Shown: positions 18,283-56,700 of the stretch, piece by piece
Layout: each line of letters opens with the position of its first letter
Numbering within the stretch: the stretch's first letter is position 1
Origin: Bacteroidales bacterium
GTDB taxonomy: Bacteria; Bacteroidota; Bacteroidia; Bacteroidales; F082
Reading direction: 5' to 3'
NCBI GenBank assembly: GCA_015493525.1
Contig: WGCY01000049.1
Coordinates: 1 to 64,000 of the forward strand
DNA length: 64,000 nt
Translations under genes and position numbers: made by a program
The notes under the pieces: generated by a model
Databases searched by the model: none
What the model was told of the DNA's origin: nothing
Seen by the model: only the letters and a program-made list of their open reading frames with translations

Positions 18283-18326
18283 TCTTTTCAGTTTCAATTG
18301 AAAGTGTAAAAGTAGGGATAATTGAG

Positions 18327-18480
18327 CATTGGTCAAGCGGGAGTCAAACAATGGTCAAGCGGTGGTCAAGCAATTGTCAGGCAGTTGTCAGGCGATGGTC
18401 AGGCAATTGTTAAACAATGGTCAAACAATGGTCAAACAATGGTCAATCAGTGGTCAAGCAGTGGTCAAACAATGGTCAGA
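18327..18480. repeat. degenerate 11-bp tandem repeat array
   Basis: About 14 units of roughly AACAATGGTCA / GGCAGTTGTCA follow each other on the plus strand with an 11-bp period. The complement (TGACaaYtGYY) is the same word family as the arrays at 54841-54942 and 56346-56675, here in the opposite orientation. Plus-strand ORFs at 18322 and 18329 translate the repeat (WSNNGQTMVNQWSSSGQ) and are not credible genes. Confidence 0.8.
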
Positions 18481-18493
18481 AGGTGGCTGGTTT

Positions 18494-18670
18494 GTGGCAG
18501 GGATGGAAGCGGCATCCGGTGGCAGACGGGGGCTTTGGTTTTTGCTGACAGGCGGAGGCTGAGGCACGAAGACCCCGTACTGGCATTGCAAAACCTGCCG
18601 CCGGCAACAGCGATACAGCGGACAGCCCGGTACGGTTCGCGTGGGCTTTGCGCGTGGGAACCGTAGCCAC
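18494..18670 (+). ncRNA. candidate structured RNA upstream of prfB
   Basis: Nested pairings are visible. An outer GTGGC (18494-18498) pairs with GCCAC (18666-18670). Inside are CCGGTGGCAG (18516-18525) with CTGCCGCCGG (18595-18604, one U-G wobble on this strand) and ACGGGGGCTT (18526-18535) with AAGACCCCGT (18569-18578). A 3' hairpin pairs TACGGTTC (18631-18638) with GAACCGTA (18658-18665). Unpaired GGGATGGAAGCGGCATCC and GATACAGCGGACAGCCC resemble a recurrent Bacteroidota intergenic RNA motif that I recall from flavobacterial genomes (possibly Flavo-1; unverified). Strand is inferred from the wobble pair. It ends about 70 nt before the prfB -7 element, so it looks like a separate small RNA rather than a prfB leader. 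Confidence 0.6.
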
Positions 18671-18738: not shown

Positions 18739-18746
18739 TACTTTTG
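18739..18746 (+). promoter_or_regulatory. prfB -7 promoter element
   Basis: TACTTTTG matches TAnnTTTG exactly and lies 16 nt before the prfB ATG. Confidence 0.6.
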
Positions 18747-18762: not shown

Positions 18763-19864
18763 ATGTACACAACAGAAGCCATGAAAGACCTGTCGGAACG
18801 ACTCGCGGCCTTGAGGGGGTACCTTTGACGTGGACCGCACGTTGATGGAAATTGGAGAAGAAGAAGAGAAAACACAGTCGCCTGATTTTTGGAATGACCC
18901 GAAAAAAGCGGAAGTGCTGTTGCGGCAGATTAAAGCCAAAAAGAACCGCATGGAGGCTTTCGCCAAAGCTGAAGAAGCTTTTAATGACGTAAAAGTTTTG
19001 GAAGAGTTTTTTCAGGAAGGGGAGGTTTCGCATGAGGAAATGGATAAACAGTTTGGCACAGCGTTAAAGCAGGTAGAAGAGCTGGAGTTTCTGCAGATGC
19101 TAGGGGAAAAAGAAGATAGCCTAAACGCCATTTTGAAAATTAACCCGGGTGCCGGCGGTACGGAAAGCCAGGATTGGGCAGAGATGCTCATGCGCATGTA
19201 CATCCGTTATGGTGAGCGTAAAGGTTTCAAAGTGAAGGAACTGGACTTTCAGGAAGGTGATGTGGCCGGTATCAAATCGGTGTCGCTGGAGTTTGAAGGG
19301 GATTTTGCTTTCGGCTACCTGAAAGGGGAAAACGGCGTTCACCGGCTGGTAAGGCTTTCGCCTTTTGATTCGGCCAACCGTCGCCACACCTCTTTTGCCT
19401 CGGTATATGTCTATCCCGTGGTGGACGATTCCATAGAAATTGCCGTGAACCCGGCGGACATCAGCTGGGATACTTTCCGCAGCAGCGGCCCCGGCGGACA
19501 GAATGTGAACAAGGTGGAAACGGCTGTTCGCCTGCGGCATGAGCCTTCGGGACTGGTCATCGAATGCCAGGAAACCCGCTCACAACAACAAAACCGCGAA
19601 AAAGCACTCCAGATGCTGCGATCACAGTTGTACGAAATTGAAATGCGGAAAAAGCAGGAAGCCCGGGCGAAAATTGAAGCCGGCAAGAAAAAAATAGAAT
19701 GGGGTTCGCAAATCCGATCCTATGTTCTGCATCCTTATAAGTTGATAAAAGATGTGCGTACGGGATATGAATCTTCCAACGTGCAGGCAGTTTTGGATGG
19801 GGAATTGGATGGTTTTATTAAAGCTTATCTGATGATGAGCGGCGGGGATAAAGAGGAAGAATAA
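18763..19864 (+). CDS. prfB: peptide chain release factor 2 (programmed +1 frameshift)
   Basis: RF2 terminates translation at UGA and UAA. The reading frame begins at ATG 18763 ([21 protein letters not shown]) and hits an in-frame TGA at 18826-18828 within AGGGGGTACCTTTGAC, the classical RF2 autoregulatory slippery site (CTT followed by TGA C, with an SD-like AGGGGG just upstream). A +1 shift after CTT continues as [13 protein letters not shown] to 19864, giving 366 residues. The stop-recognition SPF motif is at residues 199-201 ([10 protein letters not shown]) and the catalytic GGQ at 244-246 ([10 protein letters not shown]). The 45-residue spacing matches known RF2. The ORF track shows only the shifted frame from GTG 18830. 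The frameshift is expected to sense RF2 shortage. Confidence 0.96.
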
Positions 19865-54740: not shown

Positions 54741-54989
54741 GGAACGAGGAACGAGGAATGAAAAATGAAGAATGAAGAATGAAGAAGGGATGAGGAGACG
54801 AAGAGAAATTGAGAAGTTGAAAAATGAAAAATAGAAAGATTGACAACCGTTTAACAATGAATGACAACTGTTTGACAATGAATGACAATTGCCCGACAAC
54901 TGTCTGACAATGAATGACAATTGCCTGACAACCGTCTGACAACACAGCGAATGACAAATTAACAAATGACGAAATGACCATTACCAACC
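54741..54989 (+). repeat. composite purine-rich plus 10/11-bp repeat (copy 1)
   Basis: Three blocks lie between the permease genes. Block A (54741-54840) is purine-rich, GAGGAACGAGGAATGAAAAATGAAG-like. Block B (54841-54942) alternates TGACAATGAA and TGACAAYYGYY words in a 10+11-bp rhythm. Block C (54943-54975) reads ACACAGCGAATGACAAATTAAC. The A-B-C unit occurs twice more in the next gap. The reverse-strand ORF at 54294 that crosses it is a translation of the repeat. Confidence 0.85.
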
Positions 54990-56258: not shown

Positions 56259-56700
56259 GGAATGAGGAACGATGAATGAAGAATAGACGAAGAGATGAAG
56301 AGATGAAGAGACGAAGAGAAGTTGAGAAATGAAAAATAGAAAGATAGACAAACTATTCAACAATGAATGACAATTGCCTGACAATGAATGACAATGAATA
56401 ACAACTGCCTGACAATGAATAACAACCGTTTAATAATGAATGACAACCGTCTGACAGCGCAGCAAATGACAAATTAACAAATGATGAAGAAACAAAGGGA
56501 CGAAGAGAAATTGAGAAGTTGAGAAATGCGAGATAAAAATATTGACAACTGTTCAACGATGAATGACAATGATTGACAACCGTCTGACAATGATTGACAA
56601 CCGTCTGACAATGATTGACAACCGTTTGACAATGAATGACAACTGTTTGACAATTGCCTGACAACCGTCTGACAGCACAGCAAATGACAAATTATCAAAA
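56259..56700 (+). repeat. composite repeat, two tandem A-B-C units (copies 2 and 3)
   Basis: Unit 2 is A (56259-56345), B (56346-56456), C (56457-56483). Unit 3 is A (56484-56541), B (56542-56675), C (56676-56700). Within unit 3 the 21-bp period TGACAATGAT + TGACAACCGTC occurs three times in a row without mismatch apart from the last base (56564-56584, 56585-56605, 56606-56626). C blocks share CAGCAAATGACAAATTA. Confidence 0.85.

Follow-up and report, generated by a model that had tools for sequence, protein, structure and literature searches.

The element at positions 18494-18670 (+ strand) of the window, by which we mean the whole 64-kb stretch of Bacteroidales DNA analysed here, is, as judged from its sequence and predicted pairing, a long-form relative of the Flavo-1 RNA, although its Rfam score, taken by itself, would not admit it to that family. 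It is one of many dispersed copies whose hairpin tips seem to have passed from one copy to another in the course of evolution, a behaviour that we report as new: at a syntenic site in different species the frame of the element persists while the tip it carries is unrelated. The reading that we lean towards is of a chromosomal Flavo-1-type repeat of long form that is kept as a folded RNA and receives new tips by gene conversion. Flavo-1 has been without an assigned function since 2010, and any model of its function must now explain the long form, stems that vary freely at near-constant length, a preference for positions upstream of translation-gene promoters in the source genome, and tip exchange, four properties open to testing in a relative that grows in culture.

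Fold and parts of the window element

The first-pass annotation had proposed a candidate structured RNA at 18494-18670, and this is borne out for one strand: the + strand folds at -82.5 kcal/mol, as compared to -69.3 +/- 4.1 for shuffled sequences (z -3.20; 0 of 200 shuffles equal it), whereas the reverse strand of the same interval folds no better than its shuffles (z 0.13). The limits proposed there coincide with an outer helix, GTGGC:GCCAC, that we found by comparison of copies. This helix, P0, covaries across copies; its 5' strand GTGGC (18494-18498, +) pairs with its 3' strand GCCAC (18666-18670, +), after which comes CC. Both purine-rich strands quoted in the annotation are present and form the conserved core. 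The 5' core strand GGGATGGAAGCGGCATCC (18500-18517, +), with the first 3x3 G.A internal loop (GAA), consists of near-invariant columns in the two alignments described below (A1 and A2) and matches the 5' half of the Flavo-1 model; the 3' core strand GATACAGCGGACAGCCC (18612-18628, +), which occurs once within the 64-kb window, is placed by its Flavo-1 match and by alignment, and sets a GGA to face the 5' GAA. Between them lies the hairpin tip of ~95 nt (18518-18611, +), the part exchanged between copies, with its apical GAGGCACGAAGA region, as delimited by covariance model search. A 3' tail hairpin, GTACGGTTC...GAACCGTA (18630-18665, +), is predicted by the fold and proves optional and variable when the tails of other copies are compared. 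There is no T run 3' of the stem of the kind that marks an intrinsic terminator. An 11-base tandem repeat, AGCAATGGTCA, in 14 copies (18325-18478), separates the left-hand gene from the element; it is absent from the same site in the genus relative G011 (L033, L103), and similar TGACAA/TGGTCA arrays are found in the window at 54841-54943 and 56359-56674 and also beside element copies L168, L170 and L180.

Relationship to Flavo-1

No family reached its cut-off in an Rfam search at the window locus, and a direct Rfam search of the element's own genome missed the element, with one weak match elsewhere; control genomes also gave matches. A permissive search of 501 bases around the element returned Flavo-1 (RF01705) as its sole match, at 27.4 bits (E 0.0011) against a gathering cut-off of 42 bits, with none of the other Rfam families within E 10. 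This match spans the full model (positions 1-76 of 76), reproduces its pairs and loops, and has a long insertion. The placement with Flavo-1 has further grounds in a covariance model, R1, from which the window copy was withheld: R1 recovers that copy at 63 bits (E 1.5e-10 within the window), and its hits in distant genomes coincide with those of Flavo-1. Two of these, both of long form, stand at or over the Flavo-1 cut-off (L139, 63.6 bits; L155, 42.0 bits) and serve as intermediates that link the window copy to accepted members, and several other distant R1 hits fall just under it. The first-pass annotation had thus named the right family for testing, but the score of the window copy misses the cut-off; and its alternative of a known family or a new one resolves into neither, the element being a sub-cut-off long form of Flavo-1 rather than a cut-off member or a novel family. 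Its mention of similar strands, with inner stems that vary, between the genes of other Bacteroidota agrees with the copies that we found there.

Element and family share their core strands, internal-loop pattern, occurrence in Bacteroidota, intergenic location and many copies. The Rfam model is 76 positions long and its inner part is short and variable, whereas the long form carries a structured tip with conserved motifs of its own, plus P0. Flavo-1 was listed as a likely RNA that is not cis-regulatory by Weinberg et al. 2010 (PMC2864571), and a study that mapped transcripts in Flavobacterium psychrophilum threw no light on what it does (PMC9723704). A limited literature search, with most subscription journals outside its reach, found nothing on long-form Flavo-1 or on tip exchange.

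Covariation, folding strand and architecture

We collected 42 distinct copies by their two core strands, nearly all of equal core length. The all-copy MAFFT alignment, A1, misaligned the tip and yielded only 7 pairs; the tip was resolved in A2, a structural alignment of 14 of the 42 copies that leaves out the window copy. Compensatory changes on both sides are found at 27 of the 40 pairs in A2, 89% of whose cells pair as compared to 33-47% with slid partners, and its covariation score was reached by 0 of 500 shuffles; the absence of covariation across homologues, which the annotation had named as grounds for refutation, is therefore not what we see. P0 covaries as well: 48 of the 75 copies with a 5' strand other than GCGGC pair with their own tail, versus 5.7 after shuffling (maximum 14). 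Single mismatches in tips are G.T in 95 cases and A.C in 31, composition predicting fewer G.T, and this excess identifies the + (sense) strand as the folding strand. It favours RNA and speaks against a double-stranded cruciform, and would be compatible with single-stranded DNA too. On these comparisons, the predicted folding of the sense strand is under selection.

Copies share a predicted order of parts that runs inward from P0 (5 bp) through GGG:CCC and UG:CA, a 3x3 loop, GC:GC and a second loop to the tip. The 3x3 loop is commonly GNA facing GGA, the latter in 131 of 161 copies. Many tips contain a further loop of like kind, AUGUG-NA-GC facing GC-GAA-ACA (the strict 5' pattern in 52/161), and an apical GAC..GGAA motif is found in 125/161; the window subfamily has a helix in place of the second G.A loop. 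Core length is 131-137 nt in 142 of the 161 copies, so that the full rod, newly described here from its predicted pairing, is near-constant in length with freely varying stems. The two G.A loops lie ~32 nt apart per strand, near three turns of A-form helix, and this spacing could explain how stems vary while core length hardly does. Among phylum-level R1 matches, mainly from genus g41 of family f23, lengths fall into classes of ~58-62, 67-71, 87-96 and 131-137 nt, separated by gaps; each step comes close to a whole number of helical turns per strand, and shared descent of subfamilies would yield classes too.

Distribution

BLAST in related genomes identifies the window element as a dispersed repeat. 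R1 finds 20 copies in the source genome, 3-70 per genome across the genus, and matches in 37 of 119 family genomes and 30 of 396 phylum genomes; the genomes compared are mostly metagenome assemblies, with G004 alone a single contig. A pattern scan for the long form retrieved records from Bacteroidales, Cryomorphaceae, other Flavobacteriales, Sediminibacterium and Chitinophaga. The exact long-form pattern gave 25 matches among 84,980 species, 10 of them from one Cryomorphaceae MAG (coassembly_bin.80: L115, L120, L123, L124, L127-L130, L134 and L136), in which an independent expansion is probable. Phage and plasmid records gave no match to the element, and viral contigs gave no long-form match; a single short-form pattern match (L330 2806-2848, -) lies on a contig that IMG/VR lists as viral and that could be host DNA. 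With ORFs called crudely, copies are almost all intergenic. The 42 copies in G004 lie across the genome in both orientations. Two copies, one of them weak, fall within C1 ~1.78-2.72 Mb of this genome, near the probable terminus, versus ~40 in the remaining chromosome.

Apparent tip exchange between frames

We divided 161 copies into 5' frame, tip and 3' part and compared syntenic sites across species. Tips at such sites are either 0.90-0.99 identical (5 pairs) or at the background of unrelated copies (33 pairs), and which of the two applies is independent of flank divergence. In the 33 background-tip pairs the 5' frame is still above background (p 4e-6), as are tails cut at P0 (p 0.003, over the 12 pairs open to this test), both p-values being optimistic since pairs that share a site or genome are not independent; we relied on these two measures because the outer3 measure takes in some flank. 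At the serS site, for example, G000 and G011 have a tip identity of 0.51 and a tail identity of 0.88, and at the rpmG site, where G000, G011, G004, G008 and G002 have an unusual TCG tail in common, the 5' frame is at 0.96 and the tip at 0.68. The far-side gene is also conserved at several syntenic sites; genome rearrangement was considered as a source of new tips and is ruled out where both neighbours are syntenic. Conversely, one tip can be found in three different frames: L228, L300 and L232 of G004 have tips 0.92-0.96 identical, while the tail of L300 is at 0.43-0.54 to the others, and this single-contig genome supports the within-genome part of the exchange. The tip of the window copy is 0.99 identical to that of its G011 ortholog and 0.91 identical to that of the G002 copy at zapA. 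The point at which similarity changes falls inside the loop of the core, with GGCAGC on one side and GACTA on the other. At the shared sites of prfA, rpsP and prfB (the last in G004) the frame differs as well, which suggests either that whole-element replacement occurs or that the insertions were independent. If upheld in long-read genomes, tip exchange would be an unusual concerted evolution of non-coding RNA.

Genomic context and alternative explanations

The annotation had placed the element upstream of prfB and, should the family prove a known one, tied its interest to this neighbour. The gene (release factor 2; 18763-19864, +; PCRF and RF-1 domains) lies outside the element and contains an in-frame CTT TGA C programmed frameshift site (18823-18829) with AGGGGG upstream; the mechanical ORF list begins prfB at 18830, just past this site. 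A cis-regulatory 5' leader controlling release factor 2 would fit the position and orientation of the element in the window, and copies also lie upstream of prfB in G011 and G004 and of prfA in four genus genomes. However, 8 of the 11 genus genomes have no copy at prfB, and among the three that do, those of G000 and G011 are orthologous whereas that of G004 is unrelated and belongs to another subfamily. The element is moreover separated from prfB by TACTTTTG (18739-18746, +), a match to the Bacteroidota promoter box TAnnTTTG that is conserved ahead of prfB whether or not a genome has the element there and is probably the prfB promoter. Because of this downstream promoter, the many genomes without a copy, and the dispersal of the 20 source-genome copies at unrelated genes, the link to prfB is not specific; the element is not a conserved leader of the gene, we regard a leader role at this locus as very improbable, and any effect on prfB would be indirect.

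Across copies, promoter boxes cluster 40-120 nt past the core in the sense direction, and counted per flank cluster 58 copies point toward a promoter and 36 away (p 0.04). Copies in the source genome are often found upstream of the promoters of translation genes, a new and suggestive association: 9 of 20 precede such genes, versus 4 of 70 (p 1e-4, with Pfam used) in a background of promoter-bearing genes sampled from another genome, G004, with gene classes begun by eye; in the wider set the figure is 13 of 58 clusters (p 0.008). We call this preference suggestive because the classification is partly by eye and the background comes from a different genome. A control element upstream of growth and translation promoters, acting as an insulator against read-through or as a local regulator and kept by selection, is a serious rival to our gene-conversion reading, though one that we still hold to be the less expected; several sites do remain occupied despite a changed tip. 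Against it, the copies favour one orientation only slightly, no single gene carries a copy consistently and clean empty sites occur, and in published mapping Flavo-1 hits lie in either orientation and many are untranscribed (PMC9723704).

The same clean empty sites, together with the hairpin form, the dispersal over the chromosome and the 126 flank clusters into which 152 copies fall, would fit a miniature mobile element, with an HUH (Y1, RAYT-like) or other transposase recognising the folded strand and new tips representing fresh insertions. But kept frames with new tips would be unexpected from fresh insertions, and G004 shows no replication-strand bias (about 22:20). Three genomes with 27, 13 and 9 copies (G112, G116 and G122, partial genomes being a caveat) lack any Y1_Tnp match, and G001 has 70 copies but just two weak matches. 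A Y1 transposase is not needed for the element; the link to HUH transposases was rejected on finding Y1_Tnp number uncorrelated with copy number, and we think mobility of this kind distinctly unlikely. Production of a separate small regulatory RNA from each copy, in keeping with the selected sense-strand folding and with the filing of Flavo-1 as an sRNA in Rfam, is improbable: no promoter stands out upstream of copies, no terminator follows the stem, and, the tip being variable, no seed sequence for base pairing is conserved.

For the preferred reading, a long-form Flavo-1-type repeat with tips replaced by gene conversion, we can outline a possible mechanism. The conserved core would be recognised by a partner in the cell, probably an RNA-binding protein, while the stems would serve as spacers, because of which their length would be fixed and their sequence free. 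An extruded tip might be broken by a hairpin-cutting nuclease such as SbcCD and the break repaired from another copy, to which the ~20-nt core strands would provide homology, resulting in gene conversion of the tip; with ~20 nt of homology per side, this route is not established here. More speculative, and in our estimation unlikely, is a dedicated system that moves tips between fixed RNA frames, the frame being a receptor at chosen sites and the tip a mobile, structure-preserving cassette. It would, if true, be a new kind of mobile unit, set by RNA structure and not by terminal repeats or a reading frame.

Comparison with known systems

REP elements, BIMEs and their RAYT transposases offer a parallel in that they too are short, structured, dispersed, intergenic and chromosomal; yet REPs measure 20-40 nt as compared to ~175 nt for the element, whose copy number is not tied to Y1 transposases and whose folding is strand-specific. 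Integron attC sites likewise combine a conserved imperfect basal stem with variable terminal structure and strand-specific folding, but they stand in one-orientation cassette arrays, whereas the element is dispersed in both orientations, as seen in G004. The rod-like 6S RNA is similar in length and has internal loops; the element differs in being multi-copy and has no Rfam 6S match at the window locus. A sub-threshold 6S-Flavo match (32 bits, cut-off 85) does occur in G002, at L034 2521-2654, downstream of zapA as assigned by eye, and is possibly the 6S RNA of the genus.
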